Under the pieces are notes generated by a model. It was not told the DNA's origin. It did no database searches and saw nothing but the letters and a program-made list of their open reading frames with translations. Below, piece after piece: positions 9,705 through 58,863 of a DNA stretch of 64,000 nucleotides. Source of the stretch: Euzebyella saccharophila (lineage in GTDB: Bacteria; Bacteroidota; Bacteroidia; Flavobacteriales; Flavobacteriaceae); the NCBI RefSeq assembly GCF_014855495.1, contig NZ_JACYFJ010000002.1, positions 868,001-932,000 on the forward strand, written 5' to 3'. The position numbers were made by a program, and so were the translations under genes. Each line of letters starts with the position of its first letter. The first letter of the stretch is position 1.

Positions 9705-9705
9705 A

Positions 9706-16931: not shown

Positions 16932-16984
16932 AGTAGTTTGTTAAGTAGTTTACTGCACTAAACTATCGCAGACCCTTCAAGAGC

Positions 16985-17216: not shown

Positions 17217-17224
17217 TAATTTTG
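17217..17224 (+). promoter_or_regulatory. -7-like box TAATTTTG ahead of the response regulator
   Basis: TAATTTTG matches the Bacteroidota TAnnTTTG -7 consensus and lies 48 bases ahead of the ATG at 17273. No clear -33 TTG element occurs 17-23 bases upstream, so this is a partial match only. Confidence 0.35.
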
Positions 17225-17272
17225 TATTTAAAATTTTCAGTTGATTTGTTAGAAAGAATATTTGGGCAGGAT

Positions 17273-17710: not shown

Positions 17711-17720
17711 TAATGTAAAT

Positions 17721-18101: not shown

Positions 18102-18155
18102 TGTTCAATTTTAAAAGTTAAAGAGCAACATTTTAATTATGTTGCCCTCATTCTT

Positions 18156-19037: not shown

Positions 19038-19182
19038 AAATGTAATTTGAAATTTAAAATGCTAGAAAATAGGAATTAAAGATTGCAACCCTTATTGCAA
19101 ACAACATGAATTTTTGTTCGTTTAAACCTATCTAAAATTAAGGTGTTCTTGCTTGAACCATATTGATTGATGCTCACCTAAA

Positions 19183-22100: not shown

Positions 22101-23634
22101 TAGCGGTTGGTTCTTTTTCTTTTTTAGGCCTAGCCTCTGCCCCTCCATAAAAATCTAATTTCATATTAGAGATATCATTATCATAAATTGATTTTCTTCT
22201 AAATTGTTTTTTCTCCTTTTTGATAACCTGAAATATTCGATGTTTGGAATCAATAGCTCTAAAAGCGCTGTTCATTCTGCCTAAGGATTCACTACTTCCC
22301 AAGAACATAAATCCGTTCGGATTAAGGGCAAATTGAAAATTGGATAGTATATTTTGCTGTGTTGCTCCCGTAAGATAAATCAAAAGGTTTCTACAAGTAA
22401 TTAGATCTACTTGTATAAAAGGGGGATCATTGGTCACATCATGATAGGAGAAAACTACTTTTTCCCTAATACGCTTAATGATTTGGATTCTGTTGCCCGT
22501 TTTTAAGAAATATTGATCTAGATAATGTTTATCTATCTCCTCTGCATCGTTTCCATTATAAATACCGGCACTTGCCTGCCTTAAAGCATTTTTATCAATG
22601 TCAGTTGCAAAGATTTTAAAGTCGATATCCAACCCGTTGGTGTGTATATAATCATCAAACAACATGGCTATGGTATACACCTCTTTTCCATTGGAACAGG
22701 CCGAAACCCAAATTCGTATACCCTCAAACTTATCCTTTTCCTGACAAATCTGTGGAATTACGCTTTCCTTTAAAATTTGAAAAGCTTCTACATCCCTGAA
22801 GAAATTAGTGACACCAATTAAAAATTCTTGTTTGATGATATCTATTTCCTCCTCTTTTTTCTTTAGGTACTCCAAATAATCTTCTAAAGAATTGATGTTG
22901 TGAAGGCTCAGACGCTTGGCCAATCTTCTAAGTAAGGTATTAGGCTTATACTTCTTAAAATTGATTCCGGTCTTTTTCTGAATTTCGAACAAAATAGCCT
23001 GATAGCTCTTTTCATCGTAAGGTTCTTCCTCCCCGTCTACTTCCAAAACAATTTCATTGTTGACAAAATTGAAGATTTTGTCCGCTATACTTCCGGGTGA
23101 CAACACATAATCCACCAAGTTGGTAGAAATTGCCGACTTGGGCATGCCGTCAAATTGAGCTGTTTCCGGTTCTTGGACAAAGATGGTGCCACCACCTTCC
23201 TTTATATCTCGCAAACCTCTAGATCCATCTGATCCGGTACCTGATAATATGACCCCAATGGATTTATCTTGGTATTCTTGCCCCAACATTTTAAACAAAA
23301 TATCTATAGGCAAATTCAGGTGGTCCTTAGGTGCTTTTTTAAGCAACTCAAATTTACCATCTTTTATACCCAAATTTTTATTACGCTGATTAAGGTAAAT
23401 GCAATTGGGTTTAATGACCTGGTCCTGATCCGCGGTAAAAACTTCCATTCCCGTATGGGAAGACAACAGCTCGGGCATTAAGCTTTTAAAATCTGGGGAA
23501 AGATGTTGCACAACGACAAAGGCTACACCTGAATCACTGGGCATATTATCAAAAAAACTACGCACTGCTTTTAGCCCCCCGGCAGAAGCACCAATTCCTA
23601 CCACATAAAAGTCTTGAGGTTGTTCTTTGCTCAT
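19183..23634 (-). CDS. CheB-CheR-PAS-histidine kinase-receiver fusion protein
   Basis: 1483 residues combining chemotaxis-type modification enzymes with a hybrid kinase. Residues about 9-190 are a CheB methylesterase domain with the catalytic triad S17 (GASAGGL), H44 (VVQHLSPD) and D136 (GTGSDG), but without CheB's own receiver. A CheR methyltransferase domain follows (about 210-480, with [14 protein letters not shown]). A long coiled coil of SNEELQS heptads spans about 641-728, then three PAS domains reach to about 1105. Kinase acceptor H1126 in SHEIRTPL and an ATPase domain with GTGLGLAIS come next, then a C-terminal receiver with acceptor D1416 in [10 protein letters not shown]. There is no transmembrane helix, so it is cytosolic. 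No chemoreceptor, CheA or CheW gene is nearby, so its targets are unknown. The layout is a known family in Bacteroidota and proteobacteria. Confidence 0.95.
21490..21620 (-). repeat. In-gene tandem 21-base repeats encoding SNEELQS heptads
   Basis: Within the CheB/CheR hybrid, about five imperfect 21-base units encode successive heptads of the type [14 protein letters not shown], ending in [10 protein letters not shown]. They form the parallel coiled coil linking the methyltransferase to the PAS domains. The repeat is a normal feature of this protein family. The DNA copies are close enough that heptad number could vary by slippage. Confidence 0.75.
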
Positions 23635-45251: not shown

Positions 45252-45302
45252 AACCCATTGATTAACAGCTTTTTAAAACTGTTGTCAATGGGTTCTTTTT
45301 TT
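45252..45302 (+). terminator. tRNA-fMet terminator overlapping the integrase start
   Basis: The arm at 45252-45268 pairs with 45279-45294: a 10-bp stem AACCCATTGA/TCAATGGGTT, a small internal loop, and a 5-bp stem AACAG/CTGTT, with a 10-base loop. Seven T's follow at 45296-45302. This is a textbook intrinsic terminator for the tRNA transcript. The integrase ATG (45288) lies inside the right arm, and the in-frame TTG (45258) lies in the left arm. Confidence 0.85.
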
Positions 45303-46568
45303 GATATATTGCAAAGCGCATACGCTACCGCATACAAAAACGGATTGAAGAAGAAAAAATACACGGAACCGAAAATCTACCATGGCGGGGACAATTTTGA
45401 CCTTTCCAAAAGGTGGTACGTCTATTTTGACTATGCCAGTCCGGACCTTTTTGACAAACTTGGAAATCCCGTGCTGGTCCGTCAAACGCCAGTAACAATG
45501 AGCGTCAACAAAAACTACAAAACAAAAAAAGAAAGATTATTTCATCTTGGGATAATCAAGGAGGTTTTGCTGGAAATGCTGAAAGAAGGGTATTCTCCTT
45601 ACAAAGACAAGCTTAAACTCAATTCAAAATCCTTGGAATATACGGCCGGAGCCGCATTGGATTATGCCTATACCCTAAAACTCAATGAACTTTCTGACAC
45701 TTCCATTAAAGATTACAAAAGCCGATACAATCAGTTTAAAAAATACCTGAATAAAAAGAACTTGCTCGATAAAAGCATCCTTAGCATTACCAAACAGACC
45801 GTCAACAATTATCTACAAAGTATTGTCAAAAAAAGCAGTGCAAGAAACAGGAACAACACCCGCATCGTATTGAGCTCCCTATTTGGTGAGCTTGAAGACA
45901 ACGATATTATCCCAAGAAATTTTATCGAGAATATCAAAGTACTCAATACAAAATCGGTAAGCCATAAGACCTATTCGTTAGAAATCTTGGAAGGTCTGTT
46001 CGCTTTTATCAAAGAAAACGACCCACTTCTGTTGCTTTTCATAAAATTTGTCTCCTATAATTTTCTACGCCCAATTGAGGTATGCAGGCTAAAAGTCAAG
46101 GATATTTTTCTTGCTCAAAAGCTATTACGGGTTCAAGCAAAGAACAAACCTGAAAAGACCAAAATTATACCGGATATCGTCCACCATGAAATCAAGGATT
46201 TGGACTTCTCCGTACAAAATCACTTTTTGTTTACTCCTGCTGGTATTGGAGAATGGGAAGCTACGGAATCAAGTAGAAGGGATTATTTTACCAAACGGTT
46301 TTGGAAACTTAAAAAGAAATACAACGAATATCTTCTTTCACAAGGAAAAACGATGCAATTGGGAGGTGAATATACCATCTATTCTTTCAGGCATACTTTT
46401 ATAACATTGCTTTTTAGGAAGTTCAGGAAAGAATTTACCTATACAGAAACTTGTGATAAATTGATGCTGATTACGGGTCATTCTACATTGAAGGCACTTA
46501 AATCTTATTTGAAGGATATCGATGCGGAACTCCCCGAGGATTATAGCGGTTTGTTATCCTTAACCTAA
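45288..46568 (+). CDS. Tyrosine recombinase (integrase) of the mobile element
   Basis: 426 residues from the ATG at 45288 (436 from an in-frame TTG at 45258). The N-terminal arm-binding part and a SAM-like core-binding domain (about 110-210) precede the catalytic domain. Catalytic residues by position from the ATG: R261 in FLRPIEV, the second Arg R368 in YSFRHTF, H in TGHST, and nucleophile Y407 in KSYLKD. The usual HxxR histidine is Y here, a common Bacteroidota variant. It catalyses site-specific integration and excision at the tRNA. Because its start codon lies within the tRNA terminator hairpin, expression may depend on readthrough from the tRNA promoter or on excision. Confidence 0.93.
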   Translation: MGSFFDILQSAYATAYKNGLKKKKYTEPKIYHGGDNFDLSKRWYVYFDYASPDLFDKLGNPVLVRQTPVTMSVNKNYKTKKERLFHLGIIKEVLLEMLKEGYSPYKDKLKLNSKSLEYTAGAALDYAYTLKLNELSDTSIKDYKSRYNQFKKYLNKKNLLDKSILSITKQTVNNYLQSIVKKSSARNRNNTRIVLSSLFGELEDNDIIPRNFIENIKVLNTKSVSHKTYSLEILEGLFAFIKENDPLLLLFIKFVSYNFLRPIEVCRLKVKDIFLAQKLLRVQAKNKPEKTKIIPDIVHHEIKDLDFSVQNHFLFTPAGIGEWEATESSRRDYFTKRFWKLKKKYNEYLLSQGKTMQLGGEYTIYSFRHTFITLLFRKFRKEFTYTETCDKLMLITGHSTLKALKSYLKDIDAELPEDYSGLLSLT

Positions 46569-46845: not shown

Positions 46846-47874
46846 TTATAAACTCATTCCTTTTTTCTTCTTCTTCCGCTCCCAACGGTCGAAATCTTCC
46901 AGTTCCATCTTGAACGGAGTGAAAGATTCGTCATCTAGGCCATCCTTTTGATTGCCTCCCAAATCGTATTTTGGTTTTTCACTAATTTGGACTGTCCCTC
47001 CCTCAGCATCTTTTGCTTTTCCGATAGTGTTCCTTGATGGGCCTGAATCCGGAGCAACAACTCCTTTATTTCCTTGTTCTGCATGATTATTTTCGAGAAT
47101 AACTGTACGGTCTCTGATTTGTTCATAATCGATTTGTTTTATGATGTTGTTCCATGAATATTTTCGGCCTAGGCTGCTGCCCTTATAAATCACTCCTTCA
47201 TATTTGAAGGAGATACCGGAAACCCGTCCCGTTGTTTTACTGATATTGAACTTTGGCCAAATATCTCTTGAACGCAATTGATTGAGAAATTCCTCTGTAG
47301 TAGCTGAACGTTTTAATGCCTCCCTCAATTGATGTTGAAGCAGGCTTTTAATTGGTGGGTTACCCGTCCTGAGCGATTTCTCTATCTCTTTTTGAGTTAG
47401 TGCCGCCTCTCTTTCCAAGCTTGCGTCTGGCAGTTGTGAAAGACCATATTTCTTTTCCAGCTTTCGCACCAAGCGTTCGCTGCGCTCATAGTCTCTGCTA
47501 TCGCTGACCAATGCTCCGGATAGTTTTACCCTATTGGCAACGATATGGATGTGTTGGTGGCTTTGGTCGTCATGGCGGTACATAATGTATTGGTTGTCAT
47601 CGAATCCCATTCCCTTTAGATAGTCCAGTCCCATCGAAACGAATTCACTATCACGCATCTTATCGCCAGGCGGCAGGTTCAAGGACACATGATAGACCGC
47701 TTTACCAAGCCTAGGGCGTAACTGCCGAACCAAATTGAACTCCTTGGCCATATCGACAGAACTGCCCAAATCAATATTCGCATCCAACACAACGGCCTGG
47801 CCCAGCTCCACCTTTTTTTGGTTGTAGGCCAACAGTCCGTAAAAATCCTTTCCCTTTATCTGTTTTGCTATCAT
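46846..47874 (-). CDS. Relaxase/mobilisation nuclease (MobA/MobB-like)
   Basis: 342 residues. The relaxase domain (about 1-170) includes the metal-binding three-histidine motif in HDDQSHQHIHIVANRVKLSG, and catalytic tyrosine candidates near the N-terminus (DFYGLLAYNQ). The protein nicks one strand at oriT and leads transfer. The C-terminal 170 residues are coiled and charged. It overlaps mobC by 4 bases (ATGA), so the two are co-translated. It belongs to the relaxase group widespread in Bacteroidota conjugative elements; I do not assign a MOB type. Confidence 0.9.
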   Translation of the reverse strand: MIAKQIKGKDFYGLLAYNQKKVELGQAVVLDANIDLGSSVDMAKEFNLVRQLRPRLGKAVYHVSLNLPPGDKMRDSEFVSMGLDYLKGMGFDDNQYIMYRHDDQSHQHIHIVANRVKLSGALVSDSRDYERSERLVRKLEKKYGLSQLPDASLEREAALTQKEIEKSLRTGNPPIKSLLQHQLREALKRSATTEEFLNQLRSRDIWPKFNISKTTGRVSGISFKYEGVIYKGSSLGRKYSWNNIIKQIDYEQIRDRTVILENNHAEQGNKGVVAPDSGPSRNTIGKAKDAEGGTVQISEKPKYDLGGNQKDGLDDESFTPFKMELEDFDRWERKKKKKGMSL

Positions 47875-48212
47875 TTGTTGGTAATGTTCGACTTTAGTTC
47901 CTGTAAAAGGTGCTGTAGCTCTCCCAATTGACGATATAAGATTTTAGGTGAATGCATACGTAAATGGGAATTTTTAGTCAGTTGGTTGATGTTGTTGCCG
48001 ATTCGGCTCAACTCAATGAACAATCTTCTGTCCTCTGGCGTAACCTTGGTTCTGGGAAGGGGTCTGCCCGTAACTTTTTTCCGGATGTAATCCGGTATGC
48101 CCATGCCCAACGTGGCTGCATTTCCGGAGACGATTAGGTATTCATTGACGGTCATGCGTACATTGACCCGTATCGCCTTGAGTGATTCAATATCTTTTTT
48201 TGGCCGTGCCAT
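47871..48212 (-). CDS. mobC: MobC-like relaxosome protein
   Basis: 113 residues. An N-terminal ribbon-helix-helix-like stretch (RVNVRMTVNEYLIVSGNAATLGMGIPDYIRK) is followed by a helical part with IGNNINQLTKNSH, the hallmark of MobC proteins. MobC binds oriT and opens the DNA for the relaxase. It overlaps the relaxase gene by 4 bases and lies directly downstream of the inverted-repeat region proposed as oriT. Confidence 0.85.
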   Translation of the reverse strand: MARPKKDIESLKAIRVNVRMTVNEYLIVSGNAATLGMGIPDYIRKKVTGRPLPRTKVTPEDRRLFIELSRIGNNINQLTKNSHLRMHSPKILYRQLGELQHLLQELKSNITNK

Positions 48213-48223
48213 AATTCAGGGGT

Positions 48224-48375
48224 TTGGGGAGGATCCCCAACAAGCCTCGCGAACAAAGTGAGCGGTTTTTGCTTGCAAAAACATGGCTTGCTACGTGACC
48301 TCCGATTAACTTAGGCCAAACCTAAAACATATCGCAAGTCAATAAGGGCTTTGCCGTACACGGAGTGTTGTACGG
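48224..48375. other. Candidate origin of transfer: cluster of inverted repeats upstream of mobC
   Basis: Five inverted repeats sit within 152 bases: TTGGGGA/TCCCCAA (48224-48240), CAAGCC/GGCTTG (48241-48290, enclosing the next), GTTTTTGC/GCAAAAAC (48265-48282), TTAGG/CCTAA (48311-48325) and CCGTACA/TGTACGG (48354-48375). They fill the gap between the mobC start and the upstream hypothetical gene. oriT regions are typically rich in inverted repeats and lie next to relaxosome genes. The nick site cannot be assigned from sequence alone. Confidence 0.6.
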
Positions 48376-48384
48376 TAAATCGAT

Positions 48385-48870
48385 TCAGCAGAGTTTTACG
48401 TCCTCAAAAAGGATTTTAAGCGAAGCCTCCGCTTCAGGAACCTCAAAGTATCTATGGGATTCCAATACGAGATGCTTTAATGCGGATCTATAGCGTGCCT
48501 TGCCATGTGCGTTGTCCTCATAAAAAGTACAGGGGTCTTTAGGATGCACCTCCATGGGCGTTGTAAAGGATTTTACGTCTCTGTTCATATATTCGAACCG
48601 TTGGGAAGCCCTTCTGTGGATACCTTGAAGGGTAAGATCTTTGGGATATTTAGGGACATTGTAATAAAGTTCTTCCAAGATTACGATAAAGGCCCTCCTG
48701 CGGGAAAGTTTCGGTTTCTGCGAAGCGATGCCGATGGCATTTTGTACCTCGCGTACCAAACGCTCGGCCAATAGGACCTGTGATCGGGAATATTCCTTGC
48801 CGTTGACCTCGGGATGTTCCTCCTTGGCCAATTCCTCCAGATAGCTGAGCAGTTTTTCCGACGGAATCAT
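48385..48870 (-). CDS. Hypothetical element protein, overlapping pair member 2
   Basis: 161 residues, helical and basic, with LLAERLVREVQNAIG and RRRAFIVILEELYYNVPKYP. No family recognised. Its ATG overlaps the stop of the 262-residue gene upstream by 4 bases, so the two form a translationally coupled pair. Its stop lies only 10 bases from the oriT candidate. Position suggests an element-maintenance or transfer role, unproven. Confidence 0.7.
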   Translation of the reverse strand: MIPSEKLLSYLEELAKEEHPEVNGKEYSRSQVLLAERLVREVQNAIGIASQKPKLSRRRAFIVILEELYYNVPKYPKDLTLQGIHRRASQRFEYMNRDVKSFTTPMEVHPKDPCTFYEDNAHGKARYRSALKHLVLESHRYFEVPEAEASLKILFEDVKLC

Positions 48871-49655
48871 AATTTAGGGCCGCCCCTGCGTTTGTTTATG
48901 TTTGGTGTTCGCTCCATGGCATTTACCAAGGCCTTGGCAAGTTTTTCGGACCGGAGGGAGAGGCCCAAAATGTGTTGTTGTGTTATCGAACCCGCCAATA
49001 AATAATCGGCCATAGTAGTCTTTTTTGGCCAGAGCTTGGCCTTTACGATAAGATGTAGCAGTAATTGTTCGTGGGCATCGAGACCATAGCGGGCATTTTC
49101 CAATTCCTTACCAAGACTTTTGAGATAACCTTCGGGAAAGAGCTTCTTTTCTTTCACGGTTTTCTCCATACTTTCCCATCCGACATGCTTCGATAAATGA
49201 GCGGCCATGTAAACTACGGAGAATCGGCCATATTCCCATTTCCGGTACGAGGTGGTCTGATCCAAGAGTTCCATTTCTACAAAATCCACTAGCGGTTCAT
49301 TGGACAATGGCCGTTTAAAGTCATATTCGATATTTTTTAGTGCTTCCAGCTGTAATTTCGCGGAATTACCCAGGTTGTTCATCAGATGTCTTCCAAAGGT
49401 TTGGGACAGGTCAAACAGCGGTTGTTTATCTTCCAGAATTGCCTTTAACAGCAGTTCCCTTTGCTCTTTGGGGACTTCGTCATAATGAAGTCCATACGTA
49501 AAGATGGCCGCGATAAGGGTTTTCAGTTGCCCTTCTGAAAGCGCAGACTTTTTGTGGGAAGGGGAATGACCATCCAGTTCACTAATGACTTCCCTGAACG
49601 ACTGTCGGCCTATCGGCCGACTGAAATCCAGTACTTTATATAGGGTTTCCGACAT
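48867..49655 (-). CDS. Hypothetical element protein, overlapping pair member 1
   Basis: 262 residues, all-helical, with an acidic middle (EMELLDQTTSYRKWEYGRFSVVYM) and a basic C-terminus ending NKRRGGPKL. No family recognised. It is the first gene of the pair with 48385-48870 (4-base overlap). Just upstream lies a frameshifted short frame that may have been the previous gene in the operon. Confidence 0.7.
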   Translation of the reverse strand: MSETLYKVLDFSRPIGRQSFREVISELDGHSPSHKKSALSEGQLKTLIAAIFTYGLHYDEVPKEQRELLLKAILEDKQPLFDLSQTFGRHLMNNLGNSAKLQLEALKNIEYDFKRPLSNEPLVDFVEMELLDQTTSYRKWEYGRFSVVYMAAHLSKHVGWESMEKTVKEKKLFPEGYLKSLGKELENARYGLDAHEQLLLHLIVKAKLWPKKTTMADYLLAGSITQQHILGLSLRSEKLAKALVNAMERTPNINKRRGGPKL

Positions 49656-49664
49656 GGTATAAAT

Positions 49665-49828
49665 TTAATCAATGTAACGGAAAAGATTCAAATAATACAT
49701 CACTTCGTTCTTGGCCGTATCCACCCTTTTGAAGAGAACATAAATAGCAGAAACTGATTATCGCAATTACCCTCCAAAAGATAGTCTATAACTTCTTCCT
49801 TATAAATGGGAAGACCGTACAAATCCAT
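49665..49828 (-). pseudogene. Frameshifted remnant of a small gene upstream of the hypothetical pair
   Basis: A frame opens at the ATG at 49828 (MDLYGLPIYKEEVIDYLLEG) and stops at 49700. A second, overlapping frame continues in the +1 register with FKRVDTAKNEVMYYLNLFRYI and ends at 49665, 10 bases ahead of the next gene start. The joined product would be about 54 residues. A single frameshift or a sequencing indel would explain it. No family recognised. Confidence 0.35.
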
Positions 49829-50130: not shown

Positions 50131-50268
50131 AACTCATTGATTCTTTAATCGATAACAAAGATGATTAAATTTAGGTGTTCATATCAAACATCATCCATTA
50201 TGGATTCCGATTATATAGTCTTTATTCCTATTTGATTCGTTTATATGGTTGTCCTGCCCAAATTGATC

Positions 50269-51306
50269 TCAACTTTTGGGTAAGGGAAATTCCACTCCCA
50301 TTCTCCAATCCAAAACATTCATCTTTTCTAAAAATCCTTGGATTCCCTTGACCAAATTTTCATAGGCTGGGGAATCCCCATAAATCATTTGCTCTTGCAT
50401 GGTTTTATAATCTGCCTTCCAATCGTCCTCATACTCAGGGGGTGGGATGGGCCGTATATCCTGAGGTCGATGCAGATTATAATCGACCCCACCAAGTTTT
50501 GTGAATACATATCTATGATTTACAATGGTTTCATATAAACCTTTGTCGTGGATGGCATTGACCGCAAATTCCGTTTTCGATAATTGGAAAATATCGTACA
50601 AATGACGGCTTAGCCTATCCACCCTTATCTTTTCCTTGGGACGTTGGAATTCCTCATGCAATAGAAAAAGTTTTTCTAAAAAAGTCCTTTCAGGGGTTAC
50701 GGATGGAACCTTTACTGGAGGCGCTACAAATTCGGCATCGGGATATTCTTCGTCCACAAAGGAGCTTATCGGTTTTGATTGAAATGGTTCCCTTAGAGAA
50801 CGACAGCCAATTTCAACTTGTACCCTTGGTTGGATGTATCCGGGGGATTTGGTCAGAAATGGATAATAGATTTCTATGATACGAGGGTCTTGGTCGCTTG
50901 ATTCGGCCGGAATGATATTGAAACCCACATCCTTAAATCCATTGCTCTTAAATCGCTGCTGCAACTCTGGATAAAATTTCCCTGAAATATAGGAACTCGT
51001 TTCTTTCCTCAGCTTGGTCAGCTGTTTTTTTGATAGCTCCCCTGAATATCCAAAAAATCCCCGGTCAACGGCAAGGTCGATATCTTCGCTAAATCGATCG
51101 ATCAGTTTCCAAGCCTTGCTTAGCGACGTCCCGCCCTTAAAGACCAAATGTTCCGCTATCCCCATTTCAAATATTATTCCCAATGTACTGACGACCCACC
51201 AGTCCTTTTCAACCGCAAAATCTGGTATTCCCGTTTTGCCTTCTACATTTTTAAAGATGGCAAGCCTATCTTCTTTGGGTATATCGTAAAATTTCATTTT
51301 ATTCAT
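50269..51306 (-). CDS. AbiEii-type nucleotidyltransferase toxin
   Basis: 345 residues. The nucleotidyltransferase core is clear: KGGTSLSKAWKLID (G58-G59-T60-S61) and RFSEDIDLAVDR with D75-x-D77 as metal ligands. AbiEii toxins use these to modify a target with a nucleotide and halt growth when the phage-sensing balance is disturbed. The remaining residues are helical. It lies 2 bases downstream of the antitoxin gene on the same strand, in the order antitoxin then toxin expected for AbiE. This is a type IV-like toxin-antitoxin defence pair carried as cargo of the element. Confidence 0.9.
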   Translation of the reverse strand: MNKMKFYDIPKEDRLAIFKNVEGKTGIPDFAVEKDWWVVSTLGIIFEMGIAEHLVFKGGTSLSKAWKLIDRFSEDIDLAVDRGFFGYSGELSKKQLTKLRKETSSYISGKFYPELQQRFKSNGFKDVGFNIIPAESSDQDPRIIEIYYPFLTKSPGYIQPRVQVEIGCRSLREPFQSKPISSFVDEEYPDAEFVAPPVKVPSVTPERTFLEKLFLLHEEFQRPKEKIRVDRLSRHLYDIFQLSKTEFAVNAIHDKGLYETIVNHRYVFTKLGGVDYNLHRPQDIRPIPPPEYEDDWKADYKTMQEQMIYGDSPAYENLVKGIQGFLEKMNVLDWRMGVEFPLPKS

Positions 51307-51308
51307 TT

Positions 51309-51911
51309 TTATTCATTGTCCAAGCTCTTTTCCATAATTTTCCGAATCCATGCCGGGGCCAGTGCTATATCGTGAAGCAGGTCTTTTTGGTCTTCTTTTT
51401 TCAAGAGGGCTATTATTTTAGATTCTTCCTCGTCCGTTACTTGTTCCTTTCCAATCTCGCGAAGGGCCTGTATGACAAGTCTGCTTATCTCTCCCTTGGC
51501 CGATAAATTCTTGGGAGTGGTCTTCTTTAGTTTTATGCTTCGTTTCCCCAATTTTATTTCCCGGGGAGCTCCATCGGTAAGAAAGACAAGTTTCATGGGT
51601 ACCTGTGTGCTAAGCCCCAATGCACTTAAAGCATATACCCCGGTAGGTACCAACCTGATCTTGTCCCTTTTGGCTATGGCCATGGCAATCTCCTCTGCCG
51701 TTGGCAATACCTCTCCCGCATATTTACTTATCTTGGGACGGACATAGATTCCTTGGGCCACTCTTTTTATATAACCTTCTTTTTCAATCCTGTGGAGGGC
51801 CAACCGTATAGCTTCAGATGAACCTAATCCCCGAAAATCATCGGGGAACACTAATTCTCCCCGCTCCTTTTTGGAAATGGATTTTTTTATTTTGGACTCA
51901 ACACTCTGCAT
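51309..51911 (-). CDS. AbiEi-type antitoxin/DUF6088 transcriptional regulator
   Basis: 200 residues. An N-terminal winged helix (about 25-70, FRGLGSSEAIRLALHRIEKEGYIKRVAQGIY) precedes the C-terminal domain with ALSALGLSTQVPMKLVFLTDGAPREIKLG. The domain order and family match AbiEi-like antitoxins that repress their own operon and neutralise the AbiEii toxin. It is upstream of the toxin with 2 bases between. A palindrome just ahead of the start is a likely operator. Confidence 0.88.
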   Translation of the reverse strand: MQSVESKIKKSISKKERGELVFPDDFRGLGSSEAIRLALHRIEKEGYIKRVAQGIYVRPKISKYAGEVLPTAEEIAMAIAKRDKIRLVPTGVYALSALGLSTQVPMKLVFLTDGAPREIKLGKRSIKLKKTTPKNLSAKGEISRLVIQALREIGKEQVTDEEESKIIALLKKEDQKDLLHDIALAPAWIRKIMEKSLDNE

Positions 51912-51928
51912 AACACATTCATCTTATC

Positions 51929-51957
51929 TGTAACAAATTTAGTAAATTTTTGTTACA
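51929..51957. promoter_or_regulatory. Palindromic operator candidate for the AbiE operon with -7 box inside
   Basis: TGTAACAAA (51929-51937) and TTTGTTACA (51949-51957) form a perfect 9-bp inverted repeat with an 11-base spacer, 18 bases upstream of the antitoxin ATG. On the minus strand a TAAATTTG -7-like box (51941-51934) lies within the repeat. AbiEi antitoxins are known to bind inverted repeats upstream of the operon and repress it, and this placement fits. Confidence 0.65.
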
Positions 51958-51960
51958 ATA

Positions 51961-52320: not shown

Positions 52321-52560
52321 TCAGGAATATGGCCTCGGCCATCTTTTAGCGATATAATATCCCCAGACCGATAGTTCCATTGCACCGAAGAGCCATACCA
52401 GATCTTTTATAAATGGAATGCCGACCATGATGAAAAGAAAAAGTAGAAACGGTATTCCCAAAAAACGTTTGAGCCTGAGAATTCCCTGTAAAATAATCCA
52501 TATAAAAATAATGAATCCCAAAAAGGGAAGTTTTTCGTAAAGAATTTCAAGCGATAGCAT
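52321..52560 (-). CDS. Small membrane protein at the end of the PRTRC operon
   Basis: 79 residues, about three hydrophobic helices (8-26, 36-51, 57-70) and a basic tail. It overlaps the ThiF gene stop by 14 bases, so it belongs to the same transcript. No family recognised. It may tie the cassette to the membrane, but that is only positional inference. Confidence 0.6.
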   Translation of the reverse strand: MLSLEILYEKLPFLGFIIFIWIILQGILRLKRFLGIPFLLFLFIMVGIPFIKDLVWLFGAMELSVWGYYIAKRWPRPYS

Positions 52561-53353
52561 GTATATTGGATTTTATGGGAAGCGGATTCGTCCTGCCCGT
52601 TTCAAGGTTTACGAATGCCCCGTGATATTTGATTTTTTTGTTCGTTAGTAGTTCATAAAGGCAATGGACGGCCATCGATGACAGGGCATCATTGATGAAC
52701 AGCGATTGTTCCTGCAACTTGTCCGCATAGCTACATCCCATTCCCTGTTCGACCTCTTTTTCCATCGCCAATAGGTCGGGGAACAAATCAACGATATGAT
52801 ATAACTTTTGGTTTTGCACCTCCCCATTCGAAGGCCGATCATTGTGTTGCAGATTTCCGAGGACATACTGACCAAAGTATTTTCCGTTGCCCAGATCCAA
52901 CCAATAATGTTGGTTCTCATAGGGATAGGAACTTGAGTGTGGGTGTTCCAAAACCTTTGCCAGTTCCAACCGAAAATCGGCACCGTCCACACAGCTAATG
53001 ATCAAATTGGCGTGCAATCTTTTATCGTCCGCACCTATCCGTTCGGGAACGGCATCCCATTGCAGTCCGAAGGTATGGTTGACCTTGGTTACGGCACAAA
53101 TGGCCTTGTTGCCCCCAACGTCCTGTGGGGCATAGAGCTGTCGGCCCACGTTCGAGGGCTGTACCAAGTCCCCGTCGAAAACGGTCACATAGAGGCCTGG
53201 ATGCCCCAACTGCACCAAGGCATGGTCGAGCCTTGACAAACGTGCCAATATAAGGGAACCGTTGCCCCCTGCCCCGACCAATGCAATGGTAATGGGATGT
53301 GTGGGAGCGAAAAAATAATTCGGGGCGTAGTGAAAATCAGTTTTCATAGACAT
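52547..53353 (-). CDS. PRTRC ThiF-family protein (E1-like adenylating enzyme)
   Basis: 268 residues. The Rossmann adenylation domain has GAGGNG (27-32), the acidic D60 and D62 in FDGDLVQPSNVGRQ with N68, R71 and Q72, K83 in GNKA, and D123 in SCVDGADFR. These are the ATP-binding and catalytic residues of E1/ThiF enzymes that activate the C-terminal glycine of a ubiquitin-like protein. A probable thioester cysteine is C207 in GMGCSYADK by position relative to the helix with FINDALSSMAV. There are no E1-type second catalytic domains. It overlaps PRTRC B by 17 bases and is the last of five PRTRC genes. A downstream membrane protein overlaps it. Known to be a ThiF family; the activation of PRTRC C is inference. 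Confidence 0.9.
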   Translation of the reverse strand: MSMKTDFHYAPNYFFAPTHPITIALVGAGGNGSLILARLSRLDHALVQLGHPGLYVTVFDGDLVQPSNVGRQLYAPQDVGGNKAICAVTKVNHTFGLQWDAVPERIGADDKRLHANLIISCVDGADFRLELAKVLEHPHSSSYPYENQHYWLDLGNGKYFGQYVLGNLQHNDRPSNGEVQNQKLYHIVDLFPDLLAMEKEVEQGMGCSYADKLQEQSLFINDALSSMAVHCLYELLTNKKIKYHGAFVNLETGRTNPLPIKSNIHAIA

Positions 53354-54047
53354 GCTGTAAAAGTTGGTGGTTCGCGAGTAAAAGGGACTCCTCGAAATTC
53401 TGTATTCCCTGCATTTGGAGCATTAACTCCGTGTAGTTTCCGTTGAGCAGATGGTCGTGGTTTGTATGGGTAAACACGGACAGGAAAAATTGCTTTTCCA
53501 CAAAGGCAATGATGTCCTCATAAAAGTCCAAATGGCGATATTGCAACATCGCATCGCCCATGCACACCTTTCCAGAGGCATAGACGTTCATAAAAGGGGC
53601 ATGGTAGAGTTCCGTGCCGTCATGGATCGGCTTTTTTCGTGTTATGGCAAAAACGGAAAGCGATTCCCCCGAAAGGGAAAATACCAATTTGGGTATGGGA
53701 TATGTTCCCGTAGGTATGTCCAATTGCTCCTTAAAAAGAAGCCTTTCCGTGGTTCGGTCGCAAGACCAGACCAACTGCAACGTCCCCTTGTCCCTGAAAT
53801 AGAGCAACTGTTTGGGCAACCGGCCCTTAAAGGAAAACTCACTTTGGTCCACATCGACCAATTTGAGCATGTCCCTTACCATATCCATGGTAAGCGGGGA
53901 CCCTACCCCCAATTTCCCATTTCGAACGGTATGCCTTGAAAAGTAACATTCGTCCCGTCCGTAATACCCGTTTATGGCCTCATAACCTATGATGGCTATT
54001 TTGGGTTCAAAATGAAATTTCGGGTTGTGAAGGGTGCATTCTTCCAT
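53337..54047 (-). CDS. PRTRC protein B, E2-like fold
   Basis: 236 residues. The key region LYHAPFMNVYASGKVCMGD aligns with the ubiquitin-conjugating E2 motif HPN..G.VC: H149, N154 and C162 would match the histidine, asparagine and thioester cysteine. It is preceded by YPIPKLVFSLSGESL, like the E2 beta-sheet prolines. PRTRC B is described as a prokaryotic E2 family member, so the chemistry is probably transthiolation. Its stop overlaps ThiF by 17 bases and its start overlaps PRTRC F by 1 base, so the three are translationally linked. No experimental function for PRTRC is known to me. Confidence 0.85.
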   Translation of the reverse strand: MEECTLHNPKFHFEPKIAIIGYEAINGYYGRDECYFSRHTVRNGKLGVGSPLTMDMVRDMLKLVDVDQSEFSFKGRLPKQLLYFRDKGTLQLVWSCDRTTERLLFKEQLDIPTGTYPIPKLVFSLSGESLSVFAITRKKPIHDGTELYHAPFMNVYASGKVCMGDAMLQYRHLDFYEDIIAFVEKQFFLSVFTHTNHDHLLNGNYTELMLQMQGIQNFEESLLLANHQLLQHVYEN

Positions 54048-55090
54048 CAGAGTTTTTTTAAGAGTTCGTTCAAAAGATCCATAAAATTGAAAACGGCATT
54101 TACCTGCCCTTCCTCTCGCATTACAAAGGGTTTGATATCGTTCCCAAGGGTAAGGGATGTGTCGTAGATGGTATGGGAGTAGCCGTACTGTGCGATCTCG
54201 TTTACAAAGTTGATATAGCCATTCTCCAATTGGGAATCCTCCCTATCCAAAAAGACGATCAGGTCGTCCACTTCCATATCCATGTCATCTTCCAAAAAAC
54301 ATAGGTTGGCAAAGGCATTGAAATCAATGATAGGGGCTTCCAAAAGCAAATCCCGTATCATTTTGAACAAGGTGTTCTTTGGACGGTAGCCACGCATACA
54401 GGCCAGCCAATCGAAATCCTCGTACTCCGCATAATCGGAAGCATGGGCCTCGATAAAGCACAGGACGCATGGCCCCTCGGCACAACAGTCTGTCTCGGGG
54501 TCGGATTCGGATTCCGAAACCCCCAACGACCATTCGAACAAGCATTCCAAGAGGTAGCCCATCCGCTTGAATACATTGTCAAAGGGCAATGAATGCACAA
54601 AGGACAGCAGGCTAGCGAACAATTTTGGACTGCGGATTCGCAGCGAAAATATGGGGGCCATTGGAATCGCCCAAATATGGTGTGCCTCAAAAACGGGTTT
54701 CATGACAAGGATGCCATCATTTCCCTCTTGTGTACATACCTCCTTTACCAGTGCATCGGGAATTTCCATGTGCAATCGTTGCAATTGTCCGAAGAACCGC
54801 ATTTCAGGCCTCCCTTCCGTCAAGGCGGATGCCTTGCCCGTAAGCGTATCCAATGCATTTTTCGTCAGGGTGCCTAGCATGTCCCATCGATTTTCGTCCC
54901 CACCGTCGAATACCTCGAATCGGGGCAAGATCGGAATGGTCAGGTCAGAAAAAAACGATCCCCTTGTTGGACGTGTTTGGCTCTTCGGGTTCCCGATGAT
55001 GGCTTTGTCCGTGAATCCAGAATGCCGAACAAGGCCTTGTGGAAGTGCGACAGTTCCCTTTTTGATGGTATGTGCTTCTTTTTCATTCAT
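54047..55090 (-). CDS. PRTRC protein F-like
   Basis: 347 residues. The length and the place between C and B match PRTRC protein F. The body has a beta-rich start (LTIPILPRFEVFDGG), a cysteine cluster (ETDCCAEGPCVLCF) and a conserved acidic end (EDDMDMEVDDLIVFLDREDSQ). No catalytic motif is obvious. The gene starts 2 bases after the stop of C. Assignment rests mostly on synteny, so the family call is moderate. Confidence 0.7.
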   Translation of the reverse strand: MNEKEAHTIKKGTVALPQGLVRHSGFTDKAIIGNPKSQTRPTRGSFFSDLTIPILPRFEVFDGGDENRWDMLGTLTKNALDTLTGKASALTEGRPEMRFFGQLQRLHMEIPDALVKEVCTQEGNDGILVMKPVFEAHHIWAIPMAPIFSLRIRSPKLFASLLSFVHSLPFDNVFKRMGYLLECLFEWSLGVSESESDPETDCCAEGPCVLCFIEAHASDYAEYEDFDWLACMRGYRPKNTLFKMIRDLLLEAPIIDFNAFANLCFLEDDMDMEVDDLIVFLDREDSQLENGYINFVNEIAQYGYSHTIYDTSLTLGNDIKPFVMREEGQVNAVFNFMDLLNELLKKL

Positions 55091-55092
55091 CG

Positions 55093-55308
55093 CTATCCTT
55101 TGGTTCCCGCTATGGTCTTGAACATAATTTCATGACGCCCGTCGACAATGCCGTTATCCACGATCTTGGCGTTGGTCAGTTCGGGATACACCGAGGCATA
55201 GTGATCTTTGATCCGCTCCGGTGTCCAATTCAGGTCGATGTCGTCCAAGACGGATTCCCCCGAGACGTTTTTTATCATAAATTTTCGTTCCAATCCTAAT
55301 ACTTCCAT
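55093..55308 (-). CDS. PRTRC protein C, ubiquitin-like
   Basis: 71 residues of a small beta-grasp-like protein: RKFMIKNVSGESVLDDIDL, a helix HYASVYPELTNAKI, and a beta strand ending FKTIAGTKG. The protein ends in glycine (G71), as ubiquitin-like tails do, and needs no cleavage to expose it. The family is named Prokaryotic ubiquitin (Prok_Ub) in Pfam as I recall. Tight placement with E (12 bases upstream) and F (2 bases downstream) makes conjugation of this tail by ThiF and B the natural hypothesis. Confidence 0.88.
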   Translation of the reverse strand: MEVLGLERKFMIKNVSGESVLDDIDLNWTPERIKDHYASVYPELTNAKIVDNGIVDGRHEIMFKTIAGTKG

Positions 55309-55320
55309 AATGCTTGTGGG

Positions 55321-55806
55321 TTAAAAAAAGGTGGGTTGTTGATAGGCTTTCATATCCTCGATGGTCTTTTTTGCCAAAGCGTCGTTTTCATCGAGTTCCA
55401 GTACTTTGTTGGCCAGATTCACGGCCTTCCTGTGTTCAGCCATTGGGTTAAAGTTCTTGTCCTTCACCAGTTCCTTTAGGTCGGACAGCGCCTTTTTCTT
55501 TTTCTCCTTGCGGTCGTTCGCCATTTTGGTCTTTTCCTCTGCCTTTTTCAAGTTGCTGAGATAGCCGTTGGCATTGTCGAACAGGACTTTTGTTTCCTGC
55601 ATGGGTTTCCCCAACCGTTCCAAAAAGACGGTATCGATTTCCTCGATGCTGCCCTTGAGCGTGAAGGGCCGTATCGCTTTTAGGGCGTTATCCCCCTCCG
55701 ATGCCTTTGGGAGTAGCGAGACCGCACAGTCCGTACCGTGAAAGGAGACCGATATGGAGAATTGCCCGATGCCCGTCTTGCCCAAAGATTTAAAGAATGT
55801 TTCCAT
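55321..55806 (-). CDS. PRTRC protein E
   Basis: 161 residues. The N-terminal domain (about 1-80, with SISVSFHGTDCAVSLLP) matches PRTRC E. The C-terminal half is a charged coiled coil (EEKTKMANDRKEKKKKALSDL). It is the first gene of the cassette, with PRTRC C 12 bases downstream. The function is not known; it may be a scaffold or target. Confidence 0.85.
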   Translation of the reverse strand: METFFKSLGKTGIGQFSISVSFHGTDCAVSLLPKASEGDNALKAIRPFTLKGSIEEIDTVFLERLGKPMQETKVLFDNANGYLSNLKKAEEKTKMANDRKEKKKKALSDLKELVKDKNFNPMAEHRKAVNLANKVLELDENDALAKKTIEDMKAYQQPTFF

Positions 55807-56125
55807 AGATTTTGCTTTTAATTGTTGTTACAAGATACCCTCAAGAATCTTCTAATCATTGAAAATTAAGGATTTAAACCACAATCGACTTCTTCTTCCC
55901 CTCACCACAAAATACGCCCCGAAGGGGCGTTGGAACCGGTGTCCGCTTATTGGAGGCGGGCGGGAATCATTGCAAATTTTTGGATGGACTTTAGGTAACC
56001 GTAAAAATTTTTGCGGAAGTAGTTTACGGTATCTATGGCAGGCTGTGTTGCATACGAAGTAGGGCTTTCGTTAATTCATGCGCTTTTCGTAGTTGATAAC
56101 TGAGATGTATAAATCCATAGGAAAT
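55807..56125. promoter_or_regulatory. Gap between the PRTRC cassette and the kinase cassette
   Basis: 319 bases. A perfect 7-bp inverted repeat ACGCCCC (55914-55920) / GGGGCGT (55924-55930) with loop GAA lies 196 bases after the kinase-cassette stop, with only a short T-tract (ATTTTG) on the minus strand, so it is a weak terminator at most. The promoter of PRTRC E must lie in this gap; I see no full consensus. No gene recognised. Confidence 0.4.
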
Positions 56126-57325
56126 TTAAATAGAATCCCATTTGTGACTTAAGACCATTCCTCTTAATCTGTGAAAAACATTTAAAGCAGAAAGGTTGGA
56201 GTCTACAACATCCGAAAAATCCCTGTCTTTTCCTCGTATTCCATTGTCATTAAAATATTTGGTAAGTCTATCGGCTCCTTCCAGTCTTAATTTAATGGAT
56301 TCCTTAGTCTCAATATAAGATTCTTTCACGGTATTTTGGGCTTGCATTCGTAAACATTGTAGATAGTGCCGGAAAGACTCTCGGTCGCCATATTTGACAG
56401 TTGTTGGTTGCGCACCAGAAAAGAGAATATCGGCATAACCAGAAAGGTTTTCTGTATCCGTTCTTAAATCACTCAAAATACCCAAACGTCTCGCAATATC
56501 TAAAAACGGTATTTGATATTCCGATAGGCTCTGAGGACAATAGTACCATGTTGACCTCCTACTAACAGAATCCTCCGGATTGTTGAACTTATTGGCATTA
56601 AAGCTCCTAACATTGAGCCAATTTCCGGATGCTATTGCATCGGTTTTCGTAAGTGCCAAATTGAGCATTTGATGATTGGCGTAGCCAACAACAACCTGTT
56701 TACCTTGAAGTTTTAAACCTGCGGTTAAATCCATTAGATTGACAAGCCAATTTGGGTTGTCAACCAAATAGCGATTGTTAGATGGTTCTGGTACCACATA
56801 GCAGCCTTGCACATTCCAAGTATCCATATATTCTAAAACATCGTGAATTGCCTCCTCAGAATTCATAGCTTCTTGAGATAAACACAAAGTGAAATAAATG
56901 TTTTCATGAACATTTAAATTTTGTGCTTCATTGATAATTAAAGTATGGTAGTTATACCAATTATCATTGATTTCAGAGCTTCTGCTTCCCGGTAGGATGA
57001 AAAATGGCGTTTCATAAGGGCTATTATACTCGTCCCTTAATACTGCGAGCATTCTTCTGACGTCGACCGAATTAAAAAGAGCTGTTGAATAATCCGATGG
57101 CCAAAACGAATGGGATGTCAATCTTCCATGGTCAGCGTGCGGCACATAAAATTGAGGATCAAAGACAACTTGACCACCTACTTTATGTATGTCCGGAACA
57201 AAACCGTTCATTTGATCTATGTCTTGATCCCTTGGACTCAAAATTACAGTGCCTGATTGCCAGTTCTTAATAAGGTGCTTGCAATGCGCCATCATTCCAT
57301 ATCCAAATTGAAGGTATAGTTCCAT
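56126..57325 (-). CDS. Unassigned 399-residue protein, third gene of kinase/nuclease cassette
   Basis: 399 residues, no signal peptide, no membrane helix. Predicted alternating strands and helices (TVILSPRDQD, GGQVVFDPQFYVP, PFFILPGSR, NIYFTLCLSQEA, GCYVVPEPS, QVVVGYANHQMLNLAL, DAIASGNWLNVR) look like a (beta/alpha) barrel. The C-terminal third is helical and basic (ESIKLRLEGADRLTKYF). I do not recognise a family. The ATG comes directly after the kinase stop codon with no gap, so it is strictly co-translated. It could be a substrate of the kinase or the effector of the cassette. The base composition is AT-richer than the PRTRC and methylase genes on either side, consistent with later acquisition. 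Confidence 0.8.
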   Translation of the reverse strand: MELYLQFGYGMMAHCKHLIKNWQSGTVILSPRDQDIDQMNGFVPDIHKVGGQVVFDPQFYVPHADHGRLTSHSFWPSDYSTALFNSVDVRRMLAVLRDEYNSPYETPFFILPGSRSSEINDNWYNYHTLIINEAQNLNVHENIYFTLCLSQEAMNSEEAIHDVLEYMDTWNVQGCYVVPEPSNNRYLVDNPNWLVNLMDLTAGLKLQGKQVVVGYANHQMLNLALTKTDAIASGNWLNVRSFNANKFNNPEDSVSRRSTWYYCPQSLSEYQIPFLDIARRLGILSDLRTDTENLSGYADILFSGAQPTTVKYGDRESFRHYLQCLRMQAQNTVKESYIETKESIKLRLEGADRLTKYFNDNGIRGKDRDFSDVVDSNLSALNVFHRLRGMVLSHKWDSI

Positions 57326-58156
57326 TTAATTTAAAGTAAGTGTTTCCTTTAAAGTGTCAAAAACAATTTTTGCCTCATTAGCCGTATTCGGCCTTCTATT
57401 TCTTCGATGGTCTCCTAAAAGACTAATAAAGGTAGAGAGTTGGAATTGTCCATCGCCTTCTATTCTCAGAGGCGGTAAAGATATATTCTCCAGTTTTCTA
57501 AGAACCTTAAAAATATCATTATCGACATCGACCATATAAAAATTTTGCCCCCTTAACAATTCATAACAAACCACCCCTATTGAAAAAAGGTCTGCGCGTA
57601 TATCAATATCTTTTTTATAGTTTCTAAATTGTTCTGAGGATGCGTAACCCACTGTAAATAGGCCAAAGGGGTCATCAGACTTGGTTATGGATTCTAGATC
57701 AAGGTGTCTTGCTATTCCAAAATCAAGAAGCCAAAAGTTGTCATCATCGTCGAGGATAATATTCTCTGGTTTAATATCCCTATGCACCAGTTGTTTGTTT
57801 TCGGAATGAACAGCTATTTCGAGCATAGTGTCCAAAAACCGAACAATATCATTTATTAGGAACTTTCTGCCGTCATTTATGGCGTCCCTTAGATTTTGCC
57901 CTGAAATGTACTCTTCGACAATCCAAATAAATTCTGGGTCAGCTTCTTCGCAATTATGAGCGATGATTCTAGGTATATTCGGAGATTCGTCTAGTACGGA
58001 TACCGCTCTTATTTCCCTTTTTGTTCGCTCTAAACTGTCAGAATTTGGAAAAACTTTCTTGAATACGATTTGACCATGTTCATCATGTGTACCTTGGAAA
58101 ACTTCCTTTTGCCCCCCTTTTTTGATTAGATTTAAATCCTTTAATTCTTCTATCAT
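57326..58156 (-). CDS. Soluble Ser/Thr protein kinase
   Basis: 276 residues and a full Hanks-type kinase domain. G-loop KKGGQKEVFQG (12-22), the ATP lysine K33 or K34 in IVFKKVF, E48 of helix C in RTKREIRAV, catalytic HRD (H125-R126-D127) with N132, and DFG (D145-F146-G147). An activation segment precedes YASSEQF (171-177). No transmembrane, PASTA or extra sensor domain is present, so it is cytosolic. It sits between the nuclease-like gene (5-base gap) and the 399-residue gene (no gap). In phage defence systems such kinases act as switches that activate or sense; that use here is inference. Confidence 0.94.
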   Translation of the reverse strand: MIEELKDLNLIKKGGQKEVFQGTHDEHGQIVFKKVFPNSDSLERTKREIRAVSVLDESPNIPRIIAHNCEEADPEFIWIVEEYISGQNLRDAINDGRKFLINDIVRFLDTMLEIAVHSENKQLVHRDIKPENIILDDDDNFWLLDFGIARHLDLESITKSDDPFGLFTVGYASSEQFRNYKKDIDIRADLFSIGVVCYELLRGQNFYMVDVDNDIFKVLRKLENISLPPLRIEGDGQFQLSTFISLLGDHRRNRRPNTANEAKIVFDTLKETLTLN

Positions 58157-58161
58157 AAAAC

Positions 58162-58863
58162 TTACAAAGCTGATGCCAATTGACGGCCTATATATTCATT
58201 GATAATCCAAGAGAAATAAGACCCAGGTAGTTTGGCTTTTTTTGCCCTTACCTTCAATTTTGCGCCGTCTTCACTTTGAGATAAAATTCCAAGGTTGCCA
58301 TTGATCGAAGACACTACATTCTCGGTTATGGTTTTATCAGGAAGCAACACATAAGAATGTGAGGAAAAGTTTTCATTTAACTGTGCTTGCTTAAACGCAT
58401 TCTTCCAATCACTCATTTTAGCTTCGATGGAAATGATTTCACGTACAAAAAAGGAATTTTCAAAATCCTTTATTCTGGCAGTCATTCCGTTAAAGAATAT
58501 AAGCTCTGCTTGCACCAGCTTTTTAAGGGATTTCTGAGCGGATTTTTCGGAGTACCCAAGTTGTTGAAGTATTCTTTTAAAACGGATACCTCTTTTACCA
58601 TTTGAAGAAATATGGTGCAGGATTTTAATGTCTGTTTTATCGAGTTTGTTTCGCTTTGGCGACCAATCACTTTTATTAACATCTTCCCATACCACAATCA
58701 GAATATCTGGGATTCCTGTCTCAGCATAAACTTCCTTCATTATTTTAAACTTGTAATTTTTCTTCTCAAAGTTGTGAGTGTATTGATTTAGAAAAGTATT
58801 GACCAAGTCATTTTCAGGGCCTTCTTTTTCTTTCCTAAAGTTAAATTGCAAGTTATTGAGCAT
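58162..58863 (-). CDS. PD-(D/E)xK nuclease-like protein with winged-helix insert
   Basis: 233 residues. The nuclease motif is split: an N-terminal half with E44 and GIPDILIVV (D53), and a C-terminal half with IEAKMSDW (E147-A148-K149) and FKQAQ (Q159, Q161). Between them, residues about 73-133 form a winged helix with TDIKILHHISSNGKRGIRF and QKSLKKLVQAELIFF. The pattern resembles restriction-type or Holliday-type nucleases and suggests binding and cutting of DNA, with the winged helix giving specificity or a sensing role. It is the first gene of the cassette. I cannot say whether it is an active nuclease. Confidence 0.78.
   Translation of the reverse strand: MLNNLQFNFRKEKEGPENDLVNTFLNQYTHNFEKKNYKFKIMKEVYAETGIPDILIVVWEDVNKSDWSPKRNKLDKTDIKILHHISSNGKRGIRFKRILQQLGYSEKSAQKSLKKLVQAELIFFNGMTARIKDFENSFFVREIISIEAKMSDWKNAFKQAQLNENFSSHSYVLLPDKTITENVVSSINGNLGILSQSEDGAKLKVRAKKAKLPGSYFSWIINEYIGRQLASAL

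Follow-up and report, generated by a model that had tools for sequence, protein, structure and literature searches.

The PRTRC-type cassette of Euzebyella saccharophila

We analyzed a window of 64,000 nucleotides from the marine bacterium Euzebyella saccharophila (positions 868001–932000 of a contig within the 4.46 Mb genome) that contains five adjacent minus-strand genes, four of which belong to families of the PRTRC system known from proteobacterial plasmids. The first gene encodes PRTRC protein E (161 aa, 55321–55806; PF19556, E=1.6e-19; TIGR03741, 38.6 bits with a cut-off of 37.95). It is followed by protein C (71 aa, 55093–55308), a tailless ubiquitin-like protein ending in ...AGTKG (PF14454 Prok_Ub, 2e-15), and by a protein of 347 aa, here termed X (54047–55090), which occupies the position of PRTRC protein F and matches no Pfam or NCBIfam family. 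The last two genes encode protein B (236 aa, 53337–54047; PF14460 Prok-E2_D, 5.2e-26), which is E2-like with N154-x7-C162 and H194, and the E1-like ThiF protein (268 aa, 52547–53353; TIGR03736, 9e-73, 244.6 bits with a cut-off of 144.75), which has a GxGGxG motif, D60, D62, N68, R71, Q72, K83, D123 and C207. Against the narrower NCBI models, C (37.4 bits, TIGR03738, cut-off 45.95) and B (88.4 bits, TIGR03737, cut-off 131.45) fall under the cut-offs, and both are over the broader Pfam cut-offs. The genes overlap or are separated by gaps of at most 12 nt, and therefore E-C-X-B-ThiF very probably form one operon.

The PRTRC genes of proteobacterial plasmids (TIGR03735–TIGR03742) usually occur in the order ParB-E-C-F-B-A-ThiF, and the window shares E, C, B and ThiF in this order. 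On plasmids the JAB peptidase gene A sits between B and ThiF, and ParB, where annotated, precedes E. However, neither A nor a ParB gene was found, B and C score below the NCBI cut-offs, and X, in the place of F, has no detectable homology to it.

A sequence-only reading of the window had described the cassette as a ubiquitin-like conjugation set without a JAB peptidase. The families present support this, but the assignment of such genes to ubiquitin-like protein, E2 and E1 is not new. Iyer 2006 (PMC1779556), in its passages on operon type 6d, likewise describes a ubiquitin-like protein with a C-terminal glycine, an E1 and a rapidly diverging alpha-helical protein, and Bthe is listed in Table 1. 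The E2 of these operons is described there as lacking the usual histidine and having a downstream one; protein B of the window has C162 and H194. However, the JAB of type 6d is given in the same passages as always fused or adjacent (a JAB peptidase with JAB-N), and we found none in the window. Locus tags in the relevant part of PMC10434189 place PRTRC E (BT2645), a hypothetical protein (BT2647), and E2 and ThiF (BT2648-49) of B. thetaiotaomicron in a range shared with conjugative-transposon genes (BT2596-98), which suggests that this locus has the same JAB-less order.

Related loci were taken from a single scan of GTDB with a ThiF alignment, as the best 80 of 455 confirmed. By record title these are Bacteroidota with the exception of L060, a deltaproteobacterium metagenome-assembled genome, and of L068 and L070, from one metagenome-assembled genome labelled Clostridium. 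Some of the loci are near copies, and the counts are not independent. ThiF was found in all 80, B in 78, C in 73 and X in 71, and some of the missing parts fall beyond contig ends. Among 395 sampled genomes of the class, 11 contain Prok_Ub, the Euzebyella genome included. In one locus, from Maribacter sp. 4G9 (L031), all 16 proteins compared show 100% identity to those of the window, the last of them being truncated by the locus end.

Residue conservation was counted on the window and its relatives. All of the ThiF residues G27, G29, G30, G32, D60, D62, N68, R71, Q72, K83, D123 and C207 are present in 81 of 81 sequences, and C121 in 80 of 81, in agreement with the earlier assignment of a full E1 adenylation motif and a candidate thioester cysteine at C207. 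The roles of the corresponding residues in E1 enzymes are known from work on MoeB and ThiF. C162 and N154 of protein B are each found in 78 of 79 sequences, with one gap each. The spacing of eight residues between them is that of the HPN...C motif of eukaryotic E2 enzymes. H149, which had been included in the proposed E2 motif, occurs in only 29 of 79 sequences and is not a motif residue; H194, found in 70 of 79, is the likelier equivalent of the downstream histidine described in the type 6d passages of Iyer 2006 (PMC1779556). K70 and G71 of protein C are present in 74 of 74 sequences, and the description of C as a short protein ending at Gly71 holds.

This conservation bears on the possibility that, after losing A and ParB, the cassette of Bacteroidota has stopped conjugating and is decaying. 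The scores of B and C and the missing genes would fit decay, as would the few loci with ThiF alone or with broken parts. In three of these (L035, L041 and L110) ThiF is present and C and other parts are missing or truncated although flanking sequence exists, and these are probably broken cassettes. However, the active-site residues and the glycine end are kept even though B is only 24–45% identical to that of the window, C, B and X persist in most of the 80 loci, and an identical copy of the element exists in another genome record (L031). We therefore regard decay as very improbable.

The TIGR03735 model for protein A had no match in the Euzebyella genome, in a search that had no positive control. 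A hidden Markov model (HMM) built from four A proteins found none in the 80 related loci, and TIGR03735 found none in 42 of the genomes behind these loci, in a search in which five of seven plasmids matched. The pQBR55 and Deinococcus pDFI3 records in this search were also without A. The A gene of Pelobacter sits past the origin of its record, where a narrow search would miss it. The lack of A is a property of the whole clade and not of the window locus alone, and the absence noted earlier, between E and ThiF, is confirmed. The sole match to Prok-JAB in the Euzebyella genome (E=0.22) falls within a RadC gene of a different contig. RadC was considered as the missing peptidase and rejected; the genome has two RadC genes, neither of them on the contig of the window.

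The reported absence of the ParB-related gene likewise extends to relatives. With two ParB queries, phmmer found none in 94 Bacteroidota-type loci, a few of which are counted twice as they were fetched from two collections; these include the identical element copy (L031) and a second element of the same genome (L004). The same search found ParB in 17 of 24 plasmid and phage loci (two being the query sources), in one of 65 JAB-less viral loci and in three of 15 JAB-bearing viral loci.

Protein X was not mentioned in the sequence-only reading. Its position between C and B is conserved in the loci that have it, and its sequence diverges fastest. No family or solved fold was matched: 15 members were scanned and gave only single weak NCBIfam or Pfam matches. 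The AlphaFold2 model (predicted local distance difference test (pLDDT) 72.8, predicted template modelling score 0.70) is mostly below 50 for residues 1–57 and gave nothing usable against the PDB (Foldseek best E=0.67; VIA-align best Z 2.6). A single good match was obtained in BFVD, to a protein (384 aa, E=3.5e-7) from an uncultured phage of the Caudovirales, and phages were therefore searched for the cassette. Profile comparison with PRTRC F gave 1.9% probability, and in an HMM test shuffled F sequences score equally well. X as a degenerate JAB was rejected (0.2% in profile comparison with four A proteins). An alpha-helical protein that diverges rapidly has already been reported in operon type 6d, in the passages of Iyer 2006 (PMC1779556) that treat it.

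The C terminus of protein C and the JAB peptidase

Relatives of ThiF occur in 377 of 72,556 plasmid records, in four of 50,697 phage records and in 120 stretches from IMG/VR, of which 80 were kept. The 80 viral loci comprise 65 without A and 15 with A; there may be fragments of prophages or mobile elements among these records. A was found in none of 48 JAB-less viral records (0/48), and both JAB-bearing control records matched. The best-defined example is Burkholderia phage BgVeeders33 (OK665841; L209, 16824–20747), a complete phage of the contractile-tailed type that carries genes for capsid, portal, terminase and DnaB and in which the cassette is arranged as C (a tailed precursor), a 359-aa protein, B, A (JAB) and ThiF. 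This phage and the 15 JAB-bearing IMG/VR loci share homologues of C, B and ThiF in a row with the window, and the 359-aa protein of BgVeeders33 stands in the place of F and X. They differ from the window cassette in the presence of A and in a C precursor that extends past GTKG.

All 73 C proteins from the 80 related genome loci terminate at glycine, with G[TV]KG directly before the stop codon. C was detected in 57 of the 65 JAB-less viral loci and has no tail in any of them, ending in glycine in 56 and in alanine in one. In contrast, C of all 15 JAB-bearing viral loci has 62–100 residues past GTKG, and that of BgVeeders33 has 62; these loci and the phage are close relatives of one another. Among 12 plasmids with A and a detectable C, seven have a tail (3, 3, 3, 3, 61, 69 and 82 residues, the last on a weak match) and five end at glycine. 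Two further plasmids with A have no detectable C. The six plasmids without A in view, for four of which only 6 kb on each side was covered, show no clear tail; four of the C proteins end at the last model position, and the model falls short of the final glycine by 3 residues in Deinococcus and by 9 in Aeromonas, the Aeromonas match being weak (E=0.015). A clear tail was thus not seen in any JAB-less cassette among the genome, viral and plasmid loci compared. The C terminus of Pelobacter is GTKA. GTKA stands in place of GTKG at the end of C in L113 (4816–5019) and in L174 (5972–6187, the viral locus that ends in alanine); the record of one of the two has A at another site, and that of the other has none.

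A quick tree covered the window, 19 genome loci out of the 80, the viral loci in which C was detected (72 of 80) and 20 named loci from plasmids or phages. In this tree, Bacteroidota and viral rows without JAB group on a single branch (Shimodaira–Hasegawa-like approximate likelihood ratio test support of 99), which holds 77 of the 112 rows and 77 of the 83 JAB-less ones, and A changes only four times. A phylogeny-corrected paired test of JAB against the tail had one independent pair on starred branches and four on all branches (p=1), and no power.

The exposed glycine fits a loss of processing, and the suggestion that a C already ending at Gly71 would need no peptidase agrees with this comparison. 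However, because five of the 12 JAB-bearing plasmid cassettes expose the glycine anyway, JAB on plasmids is not merely a maturase, and the suggestion stands only in part given the few independent changes. On those plasmids JAB probably removes C again, and it is more likely that loss of JAB mainly abolishes deconjugation.

The same comparison bears on sulfur transfer, in which ThiF would adenylate C to yield a thiocarboxylate by which B or X would modify tRNA or a small molecule, and no protein would be conjugated. ThiF and ThiS kinship, the weak matches of ThiF to thiamine ThiF models and the absence of JAB, which is also the arrangement of thiamine and molybdenum operons in the part of Iyer 2006 (PMC1779556) that treats them, are consistent with such a role. 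However, B matches Prok-E2_D and has a near-invariant cysteine, the scanned neighbours contain no sulfurtransferase or biosynthesis gene, and related cassettes pair JAB with a tailed C. We consider this function rather improbable.

Mobile elements, a probable cassette exchange and the sliding clamp

The cassette lies in a region that we read as a mobile element because of the genes that surround it. These are a relaxase (342 aa) with a MobC/NikA-like accessory protein (46846–48212, minus strand; PF03432, 3.1e-36, and PF21983, 2.5e-15), a phage-type integrase near the relaxase end (45258–46568, plus strand; PF00589, 3e-05, under its cut-off), an AbiEi/AbiEii-like type IV toxin-antitoxin pair and a methylase-helicase of 1671 aa. 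The AbiE-like pair adjoins the cassette (50269–51911, minus strand; PF08843, 3.4e-38, and PF19570, 2.9e-73; PADLOC AbiEi/AbiEii), belongs to the backbone and is 86–89% identical in the second element of the genome (L004). A 79-aa open reading frame that overlaps the ThiF end (52321–52560, minus strand) is 78% identical in L004 and in L044 and also adjoins the other cassette type of this genome. None of eight proteins matched PHROGs.

On the other side of the cassette, a three-gene cargo at 56126–58863 encodes a 399-aa unknown protein, a Ser/Thr kinase that resembles PD-T4-6/MAD6 models and a 233-aa helix-turn-helix protein. It is 97–100% identical in L034 and L036, whereas most other shared genes are 86–99% identical and the L036 relaxase only 51%, and it has no match within the 19 kb of L004 compared. 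The cargo is a candidate for a recently moved defence module. Farther away, 4038–23634 holds two-component hybrid regulators, a SusC/SusD-type pair, GH92 and GH28, and is an ordinary polysaccharide utilisation region.

These neighbours raise the possibility that the cassette is an anti-phage or anti-element defence that tags invaders, as in Bil, CBASS type II or Bub. The architecture of Bub is taken from the passages of PMC13373217 that describe it. These systems (with Cap2/Cap3 in CBASS type II) use the same E1/E2-type conjugation, and the ThiF profile matches Cap2 chains. However, the window has no JAB that we could find and no cGAS-like gene, and its E1 and E2 are small and separate. In addition to the shared chemistry, the AbiE pair and the defence-like Ser/Thr kinase adjoin the cassette, a single weak PADLOC hit was obtained for E (PDC-M38B, E=0.0008), and a protection from invading replicons is among the speculations in the portion of Iyer 2006 (PMC1779556) concerned. 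Nevertheless, phages carry the cassette too, X, B and C match nothing in PADLOC, ThiF matches its E1-E2 models only in part, and the neighbours across the family are replication and partition genes. A defence role therefore seems unlikely, though it is the least so of the alternatives weighed here.

The second element, on another contig, is 83–85% identical in DNA to the window over 46863–49703 and 50267–51959, but only 49–66% across the cassette; a further match of 56 bp lies just upstream of E (55887–55942). The cassette proteins of this element are 70–88% identical to those of L037 and L044. Within the 19 kb of L004 compared, L037 has no other shared gene and L044 only the 79-aa open reading frame; L044 carries the methylase-helicase of the window at 78%. 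Because the flanks are close, the cassettes are distant and the L004 cassette resembles those of L037 and L044, the E-to-ThiF block looks to have been swapped as a unit between the two related elements of this genome.

Two cassette types in such similar backbones would suit an incompatibility or exclusion determinant, by which related elements would distinguish self from other through allelic cassettes. Consistent with this, in eight of nine co-resident pairs ThiF is less than 85% identical (53–84.4%), a figure for which there is no random-pair expectation, and among C, X, B and ThiF it is X that is conserved least in eight of nine; between the two cassettes of this genome X is 31% identical over 68% of its length and ThiF 53%. 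However, the exception for X, a pair in Mediterranea massiliensis (L053/L056), consists of two cassettes 96–99% identical, which refutes strict exclusion by cassette type. We regard this explanation as rather improbable.

Phage contigs with the JAB-less cassette provide a different kind of neighbour. Terminase_6N was matched in 10 of 50 JAB-less viral records, nine of them over the cut-off. In one phage contig (L137, 3030–7518) a DNA polymerase III beta clamp overlaps E and is followed by C, X, B, ThiF, DnaB helicase and terminase; DnaB is also found in BgVeeders33. Within flanks of up to 8 kb, 23 of the 80 viral loci have a DnaN-like clamp, always on the cassette strand; each of the 23 belongs to the 65 loci without A, and none of the 15 JAB-bearing loci has one. 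In 17 of the 23, the start of an E-like gene lies –10 to 109 nt from the clamp end, and the succession clamp-E-C with gaps of at most 200 nt occurs in 10. The clamp is unusually placed between C and X in L176 (4326–5420) and overlaps the ThiF end in L184 (8762–10147).

Over whole records, a clamp is present in 20 of 50 JAB-less viral records, one of them (G458) having it about 40 kb from the cassette, compared with two of 34 controls. One of these two controls carries a PRTRC E2 about 3 kb from the clamp on the same strand, which leaves one of 33 cassette-free controls. The controls were terminase-picked records of at least 16.9 kb, with shorter ones and the five weakest matches of one scan dropped. 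The enrichment (Fisher test, p=7.8e-5 for 20/50 vs 1/33 and p=3.7e-4 for 20/50 vs 2/34) is weakened by controls of one terminase type and shorter length (median ~31 vs 47 kb) and by related phages that are not independent. Three plasmid loci also have a clamp near the cassette; a further weak match occurs in L226, and one edge-cut clamp is annotated for Xanthomonas. Among the 94 Bacteroidota-type loci, phmmer found a single-stranded DNA-binding protein (SSB) near the cassette in 25 and DUF932 in 22 (for example L020, 7018–8557). The Cupriavidus plasmid cassette likewise has an annotated DUF932 gene upstream.

A proposed one-way conjugation system

We propose, with a probability of roughly 55%, that the window encodes a JAB-less, ParB-less variant of PRTRC, a ubiquitin-like conjugation system of mobile elements that is likely one-way and would act on replication or maintenance targets. 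The parts, their conserved residues, the exposed glycine, the lack of a detectable A and the neighbours can all be read from the sequence, and the case for conjugation comes from homology and the conserved residues. We infer every chemical step, the functions of X and E, and the identity of the target. C would be produced with its reactive glycine already exposed. ThiF would use ATP to adenylate Gly71 and would carry C on C207, from which C would be passed to C162 of B. Protein B, probably with X and/or E as a substrate adaptor, would then attach C to an amine on its targets, and with no dedicated isopeptidase the mark would probably be one-way or reversed by host factors. The targets may serve to replicate or maintain the mobile element or its host, a suggestion made purely from the neighbouring genes, which include those for the sliding clamp, SSB, ParB, DnaB and the DNA methylase/helicase.

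The E2 fold of B is supported, though not proven, by its AlphaFold2 model (pLDDT 84.9): in VIA-align comparisons of Foldseek candidates, E2 or ubiquitin E2 variant chains make up nearly all the first 36 rows, with rows 19, 21 and 23 being complexes from such entries. The ThiF profile matches UBA6, UBA5 and E. coli ThiF chains in the PDB in addition to Cap2, and the B and C profiles matched nothing relevant there.

Several points weigh against the proposed conjugation system. Foldseek found no match to the B model below E 0.001, the best E2 row being at rank 35 with E=0.98, and the best VIA-align row (Z 5.3 over 118 residues, 4.5 Å) does not reach the 7–8 given by the tool as usual for models that lack a clear match, and the tool cautions that Z below 8 can be chance. 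The assignment of C to a ubiquitin-like, beta-grasp fold is based only on its PF14454 match, and ThiF enzymes that feed sulfur carriers also carry the conserved E1 residues. The search of 42 genomes was aimed at PRTRC A alone, and another JAB peptidase may act in trans there. The association of JAB with the tail is unproven, as there are few (1–4) independent changes. A clamp was found near the cassette in only three of the 80 genome loci, and no clamp gene is near the cassette of the window. Finally, we found no biochemistry on any PRTRC protein, and no experiment on the system, in the literature searched (open-licence papers only), yet PRTRC-type ThiF genes occur on many plasmids.

A more specific version would take the JAB-less clade as a minimal irreversible system, carried by phages and integrative elements, whose target is the DNA sliding clamp (its own or that of the host) and whose mark switches replication; here loss of JAB would have been permitted by C ending at glycine, and X would be a new adaptor fold acting as an E3. 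We hold this to be improbable as a whole, but if true, clamp marking would be a bacterial counterpart of PCNA ubiquitination.

Work by Burroughs and colleagues in 2009/2011 and by Gong in 2025 may cover parts of this subject. No JAB-less, phage-borne or clamp-linked PRTRC cassette was found in the open-licence literature searched. What we add to the earlier description is the pattern of glycine-ended and tailed C proteins, the lack of conservation of H149, the protein X without a family, the apparent block swap and the JAB-less phage cassettes with a clamp. The clamp encoded beside many phage versions is a concrete candidate substrate, and the natural pair of a tailed C with JAB and a tailless C without it makes the question of processing directly testable. 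As a set of four to five genes without a peptidase, the cassette is the simplest form in which a bacterial cascade of E1, E2 and ubiquitin-like protein could be tested without reversal.

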